Shown here in pieces: positions 4,857-47,278 of a DNA stretch of 64,000 nucleotides. The stretch lies in contig JAAHGF010000025.1 of the NCBI GenBank assembly GCA_010672585.1, positions 45,151 to 109,150 on the forward strand, written 5' to 3'. The translations under genes and the position numbers were made by a program. The stretch's first letter is position 1. Each line of letters starts with the position of its first letter. The stretch comes from Okeania sp. SIO1I7. Lineage in GTDB: Bacteria; Cyanobacteriota; Cyanobacteriia; Cyanobacteriales; Microcoleaceae. A model generated the notes under the pieces. It made no database searches and was not told the DNA's origin. It saw only the letters and a list, made by a program, of their open reading frames with translations.

Positions 4857-5684
4857 CTACTTCTTACTTCCTTCTACTAAAAAAATTATCAGACTTTCAA
4901 TCCATTTTTGAGGATTTTCCCAGTGAATATTATGACCAGATTCAGGAATTATTTTCAGATGAACAACCTGACATAATTCTACTATTTTTAAGTTAATAGC
5001 TTGAAATTTATCATCAAATTCTCCCACCATTAATAAAGTAGGAATCTGATGATTTGATAATTTATCCCAGAGAGAAGGTTGATTGCCTGTTCCCAAATTT
5101 CGGAGAGATTTTGCTAATTCTAATGGTTTATTTTCTAACCGTCTTTCTATGACTTTCTCAAAACTATTATTTTGCCTCAAAGATTTAAATAATGCTTGAC
5201 TATACCAATTAGATAAAAATTCTTGAAAATTACTATTTTCTAACTTATCAGCTAACCTTAAATCTGATTGACAACGGAGCGATCGCTCAACTTCAGTCTT
5301 TAATCCTGGGGAAGCTGATTCTAATATTAACTTATTAAATCTAGTGGGAAAATTAATTGCCATATATAAAGCTAATCTGCCACCCATTGAATAACCAAAT
5401 AAATAACATTTATCAATTTTCAACTCATCCAATAAATTAATCAATGCTATGGCAGTATTTTCCATATCGTAATACTCATCACTGCCAGTAACTATAGTTT
5501 TTCCATGTCCAGGTAAATCAACAGTTAGACAACAAAAATATTCACATAATTGGGGAATGAAATCGACAAAATCATTACTACTTCCCATAAATCCATGTAG
5601 CAATAGAATAACAGGCTTATTCCTGTTACCTGTTAAATAATAGTTGAGTTGATAATAACGAGATATTTCTGTCAATTTTGTCAA
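4857..5684 (-). CDS. menH: MenH-like SHCHC synthase, alpha/beta hydrolase
   Basis: A 275-residue alpha/beta-hydrolase. It shows the oxyanion motif LLHGFMGSS near residue 30, the nucleophile elbow GYSMGGRLA (Ser near 98) and the terminal ESGHNIHWENP with the catalytic His. MenH eliminates pyruvate from SEPHCHC to give SHCHC, the step between MenD and MenC. Sequence alone cannot exclude a generic hydrolase, but the motif spacing matches MenH and the neighbours menC/menE and menA support the role. Confidence 0.85.
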   Translation of the reverse strand: MTKLTEISRYYQLNYYLTGNRNKPVILLLHGFMGSSNDFVDFIPQLCEYFCCLTVDLPGHGKTIVTGSDEYYDMENTAIALINLLDELKIDKCYLFGYSMGGRLALYMAINFPTRFNKLILESASPGLKTEVERSLRCQSDLRLADKLENSNFQEFLSNWYSQALFKSLRQNNSFEKVIERRLENKPLELAKSLRNLGTGNQPSLWDKLSNHQIPTLLMVGEFDDKFQAINLKIVELCQVVHLKIIPESGHNIHWENPQKWIESLIIFLVEGSKK

Positions 5685-5864
5685 AAAAAAACCCTAGATA
5701 GGGTAAGAATAAACAGTAGGTTATTAACAGATATTTAATTTTTTACTACCTTTGTTATTTTTCTCTAGACTCATTTACTTTTGGATGATTTAAAATCAAT
5801 GAAAACTGATAAAGCTAGAGAAAAAATTTTGAAGTATTCTGAGATATGCAATTATTTGAGAGCT

Positions 5865-6041
5865 TTACTCTGCATCATCTCCTGCAAAAGTTAAGTAAAC
5901 TCCGTCACCACGCTCCTGAATACCCCATACAGATGAAGCTATCCCATTATTTGAGCTTTGAGCTGTTACTTCTTGACCTGTGATTTGTCGCTGGACTGGT
6001 GCAGATAGTTGAGGTAGAAGATTTTTCTTTTCTTTTTTCAT
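5865..6041 (-). CDS. Cyanobactin (anacyclamide/piricyclamide-type) precursor peptide
   Basis: This 58-residue gene has a good ribosome site (GGAG nine bases before ATG). The leader KKNLLPQLSAPVQR (residues 5-18) matches the conserved cyanobactin leader start (KKNxxPxxxxPVxR). The peptide ends FAGDDAE (52-58), the C-terminal recognition tail I recall from anacyclamide-type precursors; both comparisons are from memory. The core should lie just before F52, for example VWGIQERGDGVYLT (38-51) or a longer segment from N31. It has no Cys, so a plain macrocycle is more likely than a thiazole compound. T51 stands where Pro or a heterocycle usually precedes the cleavage site, which is unusual. No PatA/PatG protease, prenyltransferase or heterocyclase lies in the window, so maturation would have to act in trans. 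The product might also be unprocessed. Confidence 0.82.
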   Translation of the reverse strand: MKKEKKNLLPQLSAPVQRQITGQEVTAQSSNNGIASSVWGIQERGDGVYLTFAGDDAE

Positions 6042-6298
6042 TATGCTTTCTCCATGTTAAAGAGTTTTACAATTTTAGATTATCGCTGCACTACTTAAAT
6101 TGTCAACTGTTTCTTAATATTTTTTTTGATATATCTTTAATTTTAGTAACTTTAAACTTTTATTTTAGATAGTTTTTAAAGTTACCGAAAAAAATGGGTT
6201 TAAAGCCCTGTCCTGAAAGGACAGCTTTTTTGCCAAGTTAGTTGTCATTTTCTGGCTTTTAATGCTACAACATTATCGTAGGTAAAAACAATAAAACC

Positions 6299-7768
6299 AT
6301 GCTGGTTTATGAGATGAAATTAGAAGGAGAAAAAGTCCAATACGAAAAGCTGGATGAGGCTATTCGTACAGAGCGTTTTGTCCGCAATAGCATCATCAAA
6401 GCATCGATTGACGGGCAGGTTAAGAGTCTTCATTAATGGATAATTGATAATGGATAATTGATAATTACCTCTGGTTAAAACCGTTACGGAATTGAATATA
6501 AGGAAATATTATTTCTTTTCTCTTGGTCGATTGGATATGGCGAGGAGACCTCACCATCCCACCCTACGGGAAGCTGCGCTAACGACCGCTTTTTCCCCTT
6601 AAAAGGGGAGGCTTTAAACCAGAATTATTTAATTATTAATTAGTTAATTATTCGGTAATGATGCCTACAAATACTGTAAAATCTTAGCAGATAACCTCAA
6701 TTTTCCCTGGGCAAAAAAACTGAATTCAATGGCCATACAAGCTCAGGCCGAGAGAGGCTGGGCAGCTATTGAAAGATTCTATAAGAATTGCCAAGATAAA
6801 ATCCCAGGAAAGAAAGGCTATCCTAAGTTTAAAAAATACCAGGTCAGAGCCTCGGTTGAATATAAAACCTCTGGTTGGAAACTTTCAGAAGATAGACGTT
6901 ATTTGACTTTAACGGATAAATTTGAAGCTGGTACTTTTAAACTATGGGGAAGTCGCAACCTTCATTATTATCAACTCAAACAAATTAAACGAGTCAGAAT
7001 AATTAGAAGGCATGATGGTTATTATGCTCAGTTTTTGATTGACCACACCAGGGAGAAAAAAAAGAATTAACAGGAAAACAAACGGGATTAGATGTAGGTT
7101 TAAATCATTTCTACACCGATTCTGAAGGTAATCAAGTCGATAATCCTCGGTTTTTCAGATAAAGATGAGCGCCAAATCAAAAAGCTACAGAAGCGTTTAT
7201 CTGGTACTAAAAAAGGTAGCAAAAACAGGATAAAAGCAAGGAATCGGTTGGGTAGAGCGCATCTCAAGGTATCACGCAGACGTAACGATGGGGCTTGCAA
7301 AGAAGCTATTCGCGTCATCCAGTCTAACGACTTGGTAGCGATAGAAAACCTAAAAGTGCGTAACATGGTTAAAAATCATCATCTGGCCAAATCAATTAAT
7401 GATGCAGCTTGGTATAAATTCAGGGAATGGTTAGAGTATTTTGGTAGCATTTATGGAGTTCCAGTTATCGCAGTTGAGCCATTCAATACATCTCAAAACT
7501 GCTCAAACTGTGGCAAAAAAGTAAGCAAAACTTTAAGCACTAGAACCCATAAATGTCCCTACTGTGGTTATGAAGCAGATAGGGACGAGAATGCCGCAAT
7601 TAATATTCTCCAATCTGCTCTCAAGCAACTATCAACTACCCCGGGGCGCGGGGAAAGTAACATCTCTGGAGAGACTGGCCTCTGTCTGGATGGGGAAACC
7701 CAAACAGATAAGCCGACTCGACGAAAGAGAAAGTCGAGCATAGTGATATTTAGAATCCTCTTGCCTTT
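6299..7768 (+). pseudogene. tnpB: TnpB (OrfB) RNA-guided nuclease remnant
   Basis: The reading frame begins ATG CTG GTT TAT near 6299 and its N-terminal helix region is cut by a family A repeat (6429-6658). It resumes at DAYKYC near 6660, runs in frame from 6729 to 7070, then shifts near 7058-7070 and again near 7160. Recognisable parts are GLDVGLNHF (RuvC-I Asp), AIENLKV (RuvC-II Glu), the CSNCGK/CPYCGY zinc ribbon and DRDENAAINI (RuvC-III Asp). All three acidic residues survive, but the insertion and two frameshifts should abolish function. Confidence 0.88.
6429..6658. repeat. Family A dispersed repeat inside tnpB
   Basis: Runs from TTCATTAATGGATAAT to ATTATTCGGTAA and has the full-length core: TTAAAACCGTTACGG, TTGGTCGATTGGATATGG, the CCCTACGGGAAGC block and the CCCCTTAAAAGGGG hairpin. 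The tnpB reading frame lies on both sides, so this is an insertion into a gene. Confidence 0.85.
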
Positions 7769-7783
7769 AGGCAGAGGAGAACG

Positions 7784-8203
7784 TCAATCAGACTTAACAA
7801 ACTTCAGTGCAGCAGAATTCAAACAATAACGCAATCCAGTTGGTGGAGGACCGTCAGGGAAAACATGACCGAGATGAGCATCACAATTACTACAGAGAAT
7901 TTCTGTTCTTCGCATAAATAAGCTCCAGTCAGCTTCTTCTTTGATATTATCCTGATTAATCGGTGCCCAATAACTCGGCCAACCTGTGCCAGAATCATAT
8001 TTCTCTTCCGAACTAAATAAGTCAGCACCACAACAAACACATTTGTATATTCCTTTTTCTTTATTGTTGTGATATTCCCCTGTAAATGGTCTTTCAGTTC
8101 CCTTCTTTCTAGTTACATTGAACTGTTCTGGTGTGAGTTGTTCTTTCCACTCTTTTTCACTTTTTTGAACTTTACTAACCATACTTTTAATATTCCTATT
8201 CAC
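7784..8203 (-). CDS. msrB: Peptide-methionine (R)-S-oxide reductase
   Basis: MsrB reduces methionine-R-sulfoxide in proteins. The 139-residue product has the two zinc CxxC pairs (C55/C58 and C104/C107), the substrate pocket motif SGTGWPSYW (71-79), [18 protein letters not shown] with the catalytic Cys at 127, and the terminal LNSAALKF. The start could also be the second Met (residue 8), giving a more usual 132-residue protein; the upstream context does not decide it. Its 3' end overlaps the right end of the dead IS605 element, so that element inserted just downstream of it. Confidence 0.93.
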
Positions 8204-44977: not shown

Positions 44978-45613
44978 CTAACAACAACAGGTAGGACAAT
45001 AAGGACTAGGAGGTAAAAATATATCGTCATTTCTGTTCTCAACCCATTCTCTTAATTCGTCTTCTGTGACTGTTAATAAACCTAATTTTGGACAAGGTGG
45101 AAAGGCAATTACTACTTTTACACGACCATCAGAATACAGGTCGGGATCTTGTATATGACCCTCATAGATACTAGGATCGGTTTTAAATAAGAACTTTCCA
45201 TTTTCAACATCTTGCGGATTAAAAAGCGGAAATTTCTGATTGGGGCCACCACTTGTTAAATCGGGAAAAACTTCCTTCAAGAATTTACTGTAATTATCAG
45301 AATCTCCGGGAATAGCTATCATTAATTTTGAGAAATGAGATAATCCCTCTCCTTCGGCACATAATGTGGGGTCTTTAAACCACTTGATCGCCTCTTTGGC
45401 CAGAGTTTCAGGCTTTTCAATATTCAACCAAATATACGCGATAATTTGAGAAATTAGCTTTGCTCGGCTACATATAGCGTCAACACCTAATCCTCCAACG
45501 AAATGAGGATGGTCAGCACGTAATCCTTCTGCTACACCAAAAGAAGGTGTTTTCTCTGCATTCTTTGAAAGGTTATCATTAACTTTAAGTAAGCTTCTGA
45601 TTGTTAATGCCAT
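44978..45613 (-). CDS. Cys-tailed protein A, possible RiPP precursor
   Basis: The 211-residue product is unrecognised as a named family. A helix RAKLISQIIAYIWLNIEKPE lies near residues 49-68. A variable middle follows, then VKVVIAFPPCPK, LLTVTEDELREWVEN and the end LPPSPYCPTCCC. The protein 46100-47137 shares the same order: KLSQLIAETWLRD, RVFIPYPQRP, ILTADTIKNW and PPYPYLPMSCSC, so the two are diverged paralogs. The helix-then-LPP-then-short-Cys-tail plan recalls nitrile-hydratase-leader (NHLP) RiPP precursors, with the tail as core; metal binding by the tail is an alternative. No maturation enzyme is in the window. Confidence 0.72.
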   Translation of the reverse strand: MALTIRSLLKVNDNLSKNAEKTPSFGVAEGLRADHPHFVGGLGVDAICSRAKLISQIIAYIWLNIEKPETLAKEAIKWFKDPTLCAEGEGLSHFSKLMIAIPGDSDNYSKFLKEVFPDLTSGGPNQKFPLFNPQDVENGKFLFKTDPSIYEGHIQDPDLYSDGRVKVVIAFPPCPKLGLLTVTEDELREWVENRNDDIFLPPSPYCPTCCC

Positions 45614-46099: not shown

Positions 46100-47137
46100 T
46101 TAGCAAGAACAACTCATTGGTAAATAAGGATAGGGTGGCGAAACATATTCTATATGGATGCCGTCTTTTGAATTCCACTTTTTCTTTGCAAACGGGAATT
46201 CTGTAGATTTTGGTTTCCGTACTATATCCTGGGAATATGCCCAATTTTTGATTGTATCAGCAGTTAGTATGGGTTGAAATAGTCCATCCTCATAGGAATC
46301 TGCCTTTTCTGTTACATTAGGACGTTGAGGATAAGGAATAAACACTCTGTAGAAAGGAGGTTGATTTTTTCCTACCTGCTTAATCTCTTCCACAGTCCCT
46401 ACAAAGCTGTTCCAAACTACCTGAAAACTGAAGAAACAAGACGCTTCATAAGTTGAAATAATCGGACTCTTTAATACTTCTATATATCGATCGCCTTTTT
46501 TATAATAAGCTTGTCCACAAAACAACAAATTCAAACAGATATTTCGCCAACTTTCTTGATTTTTCTTAATAATCATTTGACGGTCAGATTTAGTTGCTGA
46601 AGATTCAGACTTAGTACGATCTGGCGGTCTATTAGCACTCAGAAATAGTTTCCTAATAATCTTTAATGCTAATACTTTCTCTTCTTTTATTTCTGTCTCT
46701 TGGTTACTACTAATTGTTGGGTCTATTAATGATGTCTTTTCATCAATAGTTGCCTCTATTTGATCGTCCCTGAGCCATGTCTCAGCAATCAATTGAGATA
46801 ATTTTCTGGCTGCCAGAAGCCGACGCAAAGCATGATATTGATTGATAAACATCTTATCGCCCATGCTCTTTTTCTTAAACTTCATCACTGCCTTCATATC
46901 TAATCCCTCATGGGGAAAATTATCTATTTTTTCATTTCCAATTCCCGGCAACTTTTCCTTTAAATACTTTTTAGTTCCTGTATATACTGTTGTTTTGATT
47001 CCGAGATGAGAGTTATTATCTTCTTCCACTAAAAGAATTTGGTATTGAAATTTTTCCCCCTGAGATAAATTTGGGGATAGAACTTCATCTCCAGGTAATT
47101 TTTGATTATTAGTACTATCTAAATCGAAAGGCATCAT
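46100..47137 (-). CDS. Cys-tailed protein B, paralog of protein A
   Basis: I place the start at ATG 47137 (MMPFDLDSTN, 345 residues), because the longer open frame reads into a family A repeat that begins at 47143. The middle has LLAARKLSQLIAETWLRD and a Lys-rich insert absent from protein A. The C-terminal third has FYRVFIPYPQRP, ILTADTIKNWAYSQ and the end SPPYPYLPMSCSC. The shared tail pattern with protein A is PPxPYxP followed by a CxC or CCC end. No signal peptide or membrane span. Function unknown; a RiPP-precursor-like or metal-binding role is hypothetical. The repeat insertion has replaced its native upstream region. Confidence 0.7.
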   Translation of the reverse strand: MMPFDLDSTNNQKLPGDEVLSPNLSQGEKFQYQILLVEEDNNSHLGIKTTVYTGTKKYLKEKLPGIGNEKIDNFPHEGLDMKAVMKFKKKSMGDKMFINQYHALRRLLAARKLSQLIAETWLRDDQIEATIDEKTSLIDPTISSNQETEIKEEKVLALKIIRKLFLSANRPPDRTKSESSATKSDRQMIIKKNQESWRNICLNLLFCGQAYYKKGDRYIEVLKSPIISTYEASCFFSFQVVWNSFVGTVEEIKQVGKNQPPFYRVFIPYPQRPNVTEKADSYEDGLFQPILTADTIKNWAYSQDIVRKPKSTEFPFAKKKWNSKDGIHIEYVSPPYPYLPMSCSC

Positions 47138-47142
47138 AAATC

Positions 47143-47278
47143 TTACCGAATAATTAAAGTTTAAAGCCTCTCCTTTAAAGGAGAAACAAGAAAAAATTTT
47201 CCTTTTATTCAATCCTCTTCCTTTTAGGGAGAAGCAATAATTAATTATTAATTATTAATTATTAATTATTAATTGTTT
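47143..47278. repeat. Family A repeat abutting a start codon
   Basis: Runs TTACCGAATAATTAAAG to ATTATTAATTGTTTAA. It has the CTCTCCTTTAAAGGAG hairpin and starts six bases upstream of the Cys-tailed protein B start. Confidence 0.8.

Follow-up and report, generated by a model that had tools for sequence, protein, structure and literature searches.

Cyanobactins without heterocycles are described as peptides of 7–20 residues with a conserved proline (PMC4663559). The consensus given for PatA cleavage is G(L/V)E(A/P)S (PMC10885120), and the PatG macrocyclase (PatGmac) reportedly depends on thiazoline or L-proline in front of the tag, a position at which triazole and vicinal disulphide replacements are also reported to work (PMC5708355). 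Trichodesmium is given as the closest relative of Okeania and is nested within its clade (PMC7825088). In Trichodesmium the tri cluster contains two proteases together with a cyclodehydratase, and trichamide is cited as the exception that has no F gene (PMC4663559). A literature search covering titles and the openings of abstracts, with most subscription papers lying outside it, returned no Okeania cyanobactin precursor and no dispersed Okeania pathway.

The window, i.e. the whole stretch of 64,000 nucleotides analysed here, belongs to a genome of 9.48 Mb in 109 contigs (the marine cyanobacterium Okeania sp. SIO1I7, G000). It was compared with Okeania SIO3B5 (G001), SIO2B3 (G002), O. hirsuta PAB10Feb10-1 (G003) and SIO2C9 (G004). 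The first-pass annotation had read a 58-codon cyanobactin precursor gene at positions 5865–6041 of the reverse strand (hereafter E1), and both the leader KKNLLPQLSAPVQR and the tail FAGDDAE are as it described them. A GGAG ribosome-binding site (6050–6053, reverse strand) is situated 8 nt before the ATG and is found in all five Okeania. The proposed E-type identity agrees with the curated profile TIGR04446 for anacyclamide/piricyclamide precursors (46.1 bits, cut-off 35, E=4.4e-12) and with Pfam DUF5840 (29.8 bits, cut-off 25). The TIGR04446 cut-off is passed at one place in the 9.48-Mb genome, namely E1, and some of the five weaker places correspond to other precursors, including the precursor E2 described below. 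The degenerate DNA pattern of FAGDDAE also has its single mismatch-free genomic site in E1. A chance ORF is rejected by the two profile matches together with the uniqueness of this tail site.

The residues GIAS (33–36; positions 5934–5945, reverse strand) form a putative PatA cleavage motif. They resemble the published consensus but lack its Glu; O. hirsuta has AIAS at this place. A cut following GIAS, suggested by this likeness, would give the predicted core SVWGIQERGDGVYLT (residues 37–51; 5889–5933, reverse strand). The first-pass annotation located the core in the same region and correctly saw that it contains no Cys; its example VWGIQERGDGVYLT would be one residue short with such a cut. 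The core is SVWGIQERGDGVYLT in SIO1I7, SIO3B5 and SIO2B3, SIFGIEERGSGVYLT in O. hirsuta and SFYGIQERGDGVYLT in SIO2C9. Its last residue, Thr51 (5889–5891, reverse strand), occupies the −1 (P1) position before the recognition tail (5868–5888, reverse strand). Profile, leader and tail mark E1 as an anacyclamide-type precursor, but two usual features, the Pro at the core end and the place beside the proteases, are missing. It shares with the anacyclamide/piricyclamide precursors the leader motif, the Cys-free core (15 residues in E1) and the FAGDDAE tail, but has Thr instead of the conserved Pro, is present in a single copy and is located away from the proteases. We lean, with modest confidence, towards E1 being the precursor of a dispersed Okeania cyanobactin pathway, with E1 transcribed from a promoter of its own and its product processed in trans.

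The Thr before the tail, flagged as unusual on first reading, is indeed so. Among distinct precursors that have the tail and a leader that can be recognised, the −1 residue is Thr in 5/5 from Okeania and Pro in 65/65 from elsewhere. Many of these 65 sequences share a genome, so they are not independent of one another. Thirteen were obtained solely through a [PT]FAGDDAE scan able to show Pro or Thr only, and most of the other 52 were retrieved through the TIGR04446 profile, a possible source of bias towards Pro. One row with Gly, an ORF of the genome G140 ending in FRGKGRH, was set aside as a false tail. The [PT]FAGDDAE scan of named genomes gave 16 loci, the nearest four being the Okeania ones (SIO3B5, SIO2B3, SIO2C9 and O. 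hirsuta PAB10Feb10-1). As the five Okeania are closely related, a single ancestral mutation suffices for the Thr. The residue departs from the family and from the known need of the enzyme, since proline is given as conserved (PMC4663559) and as one of the residues that PatGmac requires (PMC5708355). In the main rival explanation the change from Pro to Thr made E1 a dead substrate; E1 is then a silenced relic, its ORF still open owing to the close relationship of the Okeania genomes. In favour of this, Thr51 breaks the reported PatG requirement (PMC5708355), and inactive cyanobactin clusters and precursors are reported from Microcystis (PMC3428304). We nevertheless regard a relic as rather unlikely, in view of the features that follow.

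E1 has no indel or stop across its 58 codons in 5/5 genomes, and 0/21 columns of the tail vary among them, both of which argue against a relic. Variable columns number 10/129 in the leader and tail, 9/45 in the core and 24/150 in the 150 nt downstream. Fisher tests, uncorrected and made on five related sequences, give p=0.048 for the core versus the leader and tail, p=0.043 for the leader and tail versus the downstream region and p=0.047 for the tail versus the downstream region. The leader and tail vary less than the core and the downstream DNA, which is the pattern expected of a precursor, the tests being weak. On the side of the relic, divergence of the whole CDS is not significantly below that of the downstream DNA (p=0.19, likewise uncorrected and from five related sequences). 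The pN/pS ratio ranges from 0.10 to 1.19 over the ten Okeania pairs, the highest value belonging to the pair SIO1I7–O. hirsuta.

A motif scan of the region upstream of E1 revealed a promoter-like TTGACA-N16-GATAAT (6079–6106, reverse strand) with a score of 11/12. This score was reached in 1/1000 shuffles of the 150 nt upstream of E1, but with promoter-like sites counted less strictly, 1 is present versus 2.4 expected, no more than by chance. The same site is found in SIO2B3 and SIO2C9, TTGACA-N15-TATAAT in SIO3B5, and another sequence in O. hirsuta; the best scores with spacers of 16–18 are 11 in SIO1I7, SIO2B3 and SIO2C9, 10 in SIO3B5 and 9 in O. hirsuta. Thus TTGACA is kept in the four enzyme-bearing genomes, although 21 of the last 60 columns before the ATG vary among them, which is a further point against a relic. 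Downstream of E1 a terminator-like hairpin precedes a T run (5691–5704, reverse strand), and the hairpin is present in all five Okeania rows.

The absence of a PatA/PatG protease, prenyltransferase or heterocyclase from the window, noted on first reading, was confirmed by tblastn. With PatA, PatB, PatG, PatD and the prenyltransferase as queries, the window plus the adjacent 15 kb on its left side showed no PatA, PatB, PatG or PatD; the sole match at E<=1 is an 18-residue stretch of the prenyltransferase (E=0.9). Processing enzymes do exist on other contigs, so the window alone does not show what the genome lacks. The possibility that the genome has no such enzymes is rejected: PatA, PatB and PatG are encoded on contig C32 and a PatD-type protein on contig C23. 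The first-pass annotation had held that a genome devoid of PatA/PatG homologues would speak against its proposal. The genome-wide profile search for these proteases and for further precursors showed both PatA and PatG on C32 and the second precursor E2 on C23.

Three proteins of the genome pass the cut-off of TIGR03895 (PatA/PatG; 421.05), and two of them adjoin on C32. These are PatA and PatG with 954.2 and 891.7 bits, respectively; their frames are open and both contain PatG_D and PatG_C domains. The PatA-type protein matches 4H6W_A, an N-terminal cyanobactin protease, with 443 bits. Residues 7–334 of the PatG-type protein align with the PatG macrocyclase 4H6X (349.7 bits) through the Asp-His insertion, and residues 7–328 with 4AKT (344.5 bits). 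Asp and His are spaced by 75 in four Okeania PatG rows, compared with 38–39 in the PatA-type rows measured. A PatB ORF (TIGR04220, 118.5 bits, cut-off 55) adjoins the two proteases on the other strand. The C23 protein is a fused PatD-type cyclodehydratase (TIGR03604, 265.7 bits, cut-off 219.25; TIGR03882, 135.9 bits, cut-off 36.9). The F-type prenyltransferase (TIGR04445) was found in 0/5 Okeania by a search that gave matches in 9/20 genomes, 8 of them over the cut-off, and in this respect Okeania differs from the anacyclamide/piricyclamide systems. In a protease tree of 31 rows Okeania PatA (four rows) is sister to PatA of G140 with support of 100/100, and Okeania PatG (three rows, that of SIO2B3 being absent) is sister to PatG of G140 with 100/99; long branches were flagged for L003_G000, L054_G038 and L073_G140.

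An Okeania-specific GTSC motif in the active site of PatG was considered as the cause of the Thr and rejected. GTSCAAP is present in 13/13 PatG-type rows, which include PatG from genomes whose precursors have Pro, and among these rows no active-site residue distinguishing the Okeania PatG was found.

Of the two fates that the first-pass annotation offered for E1, processing in trans is supported in the window's genome by the open PatA and PatG of C32 and the adjoining PatB. The other, a stray precursor losing its enzymes, does not hold there and applies to O. hirsuta. In the latter genome (given as 99% complete, 720 contigs) PatA was not found by whole-protein search. The PatG-like gene has an internal TAG and a TAA, and its profile match starts at position 38 of 606; no PatB-like ORF was detected by motif in the 15 kb around it. 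The single YcaO gene found is apparently the counterpart of a gene on contig C17 of the window's genome, and an E2-linked PatD-type YcaO was not found. E1 of O. hirsuta is a stranded, stray precursor, the ORF of which is open though its promoter is replaced. This openness, with neither PatA, nor intact PatG, nor the promoter, speaks for the relic. For processing in trans, the joint loss of enzymes and promoter fits a working link in the other species, but it is one event in one species.

The second precursor, E2, is encoded at L101:8566-8751(-) on contig C23, ~1 kb from the PatD-type gene. Its core ends with RNRPYRC, i.e. with Cys, and is followed by the tail SYDGDAD. E2 is found in SIO1I7, SIO3B5, SIO2B3 and SIO2C9, the last having an altered form with NLPYRC and SYDSDAE. 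Its matches are below the cut-offs (NF042906, 54.4 bits versus 75; TIGR03678, 31.2 bits versus 39.6), and we infer that it is trichamide-like. The tail of E2 is unlike FAGDDAE, so that PatG of C32 may be specialised for E2.

The presence of a cyclodehydratase suggests another route to a ring, in which PatD of C23 converts Thr51 to a methyloxazoline and so provides PatG with a heterocycle at P1. Cyanobactin heterocyclases are stated to accept Thr besides Cys and Ser (PMC4663559), and the PatD-type gene stands beside E2 in 4/5 Okeania. This route is nonetheless improbable. The match of E1 to TIGR03678, the leader profile of heterocyclised precursors of the microcyclamide/patellamide type (26.9 bits, cut-off 39.6) covers positions 2–21 of 34, whereas that of E2, itself below the cut-off, covers positions 1–34. 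With the leader region beyond position 21 missing from E1, PatD is not expected to make an oxazoline of Thr51. Moreover, E1 of O. hirsuta keeps the Thr, though no E2-linked YcaO was found in that genome.

A second YcaO gene is located at G000:C17:5954-6976 (frame of 775–793 aa), and apparently the same gene occurs in all five Okeania (C279 of SIO3B5, C59 of SIO2B3, C235 of O. hirsuta and C2 of SIO2C9). Near the PatD locus on C23 there is also a radical SAM protein (Pfam) at L101:16467-17744(+), which ends with TDGGHGW and whose best NCBIfam peptide-maturase matches are below the cut-offs.

The third protein passing the TIGR03895 cut-off is encoded on contig C33. It lacks the macrocyclase insertion and is situated beside small peptides with an LPxQ..PVxR leader, so one may imagine that E1 is served by this PatA-only locus and released as a linear peptide. 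We consider this very improbable: the small peptides are the locus's own and have no FAGDDAE tail, the protease forms a clade of its own (100/99, the SIO1I7 row on a long branch), and it was found in 3/5 Okeania with no link to E1. The PatA-only locus (G000:C33, L012:5895-9865; L097 in SIO3B5; L100 in SIO2C9) is possibly an unstudied peptide system. One of its ORFs weakly resembles PatB (47.9 bits in SIO1I7 and 18.8 bits in SIO3B5, cut-off 55) and has Cys in its tail, and a patatin-like protein near the SIO1I7 locus has 151.4 bits to CBASS_lipase (cut-off 200).

Processing of E1 by the C32 proteases would require them to act from another place in the genome. The neighbourhood of E1, made up largely of vitamin-K genes, is constant in the five Okeania and consists of menE, menC, menH, E1, msrB, menA and menF, SIO3B5 showing menH, E1 and msrB alone on a 3-kb contig. 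The adjoining menH (4857–5684, reverse strand), a neighbour outside the pathway, was named by a curated profile (TIGR03695, 292.2 bits, cut-off 208.55). We take menE, menC, menA and menF to be such from their Pfam domains, and msrB is presumably a gene of that name. Transposase-like fragments, presumably of TnpB, occupy positions 6299–7829 of the forward strand, separating E1 from msrB. In O. hirsuta the match of E1 is followed, after ~20 nt on its upstream side, by renewed sequence matching. Elsewhere in the window two ORFs, 211 and 370 aa long (44978–45613 and 46100–47212, reverse strand), end with CPTCCC and PMSCSC; they gave no Pfam match at 1e-5 and no NCBIfam match at 0.01. A spread of E1 on plasmids is rejected, as tblastn of E1 against a plasmid collection gave no match.

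In all five Okeania E1 is found on a contig without a PatA/PatG match. These contigs are 120 kb long in SIO1I7, 529 kb in SIO2B3, 83 kb in O. hirsuta and 247 kb in SIO2C9; SIO3B5, where the contig has just 3 kb, is uninformative on linkage. PatG and PatA of SIO3B5 are at contig ends, and those of SIO2C9 are 72 kb apart on one contig. The comparison set consisted of 15 non-Okeania genomes with a TIGR04446 match at 1e-5, four of them below the family cut-off. A PatA/PatG match is present in 14/15; 13 of them have such a match within 4 kb of a precursor, the exception being G140. In G038 the nearby match is incomplete, and the complete ones are located on a different contig. G075, the fifteenth genome, lacks a protease match at 1e-100 and has a stop within its precursor match.

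The genome G140, of the same order, resembles Okeania in its sister PatA and PatG and in having unlinked precursors. Two intact anacyclamide-type precursors (C4:1146551-1147542) lie ~750–760 kb from PatD and PatG on one contig. Unlike E1, both keep the Pro, and further precursors adjoin the G140 PatG. As far as the source describes it, the tri system of Trichodesmium is similar to that of Okeania in its cyclodehydratase and two proteases, no F gene having been found in Okeania, but tri is one cluster of ~12.5 kb whereas in Okeania the A/B/G genes, the D gene with E2, and E1 are on separate contigs.

In the pathway that we favour for E1, the gene would be transcribed from its own promoter, the PatA-type protease of C32 would cut the product after GIAS, and the PatG-type protease of C32 would recognise FAGDDAE and cut after Thr51. 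The 15-residue core would be released in cyclic or linear form, and the same enzymes would serve E2 with its Cys-ended core. A relaxed PatG would be needed to close a ring at Thr, but perhaps not for linear release. The putative ring product is uncertain, because the characterised PatG is described as needing Pro or thiazoline at −1 (PMC5708355). It is conceivable, though unlikely, that the product is a cyclic 15-residue peptide closed at Thr by a trans-acting PatG that needs neither Pro nor azoline at P1, works on a precursor from an unrelated housekeeping locus and also closes the Cys-ended E2 product.

If E1 is processed, it would be a natural exception to the rule that the PatG macrocyclase has Pro or thiazoline at P1, and such a PatG, if real, would help in the production of Pro-free peptide rings. 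The arrangement in Okeania suggests that a cyanobactin pathway can span separate loci. Mining beside the proteases would then miss E1, and mining beside E1 would report its enzymes as absent.
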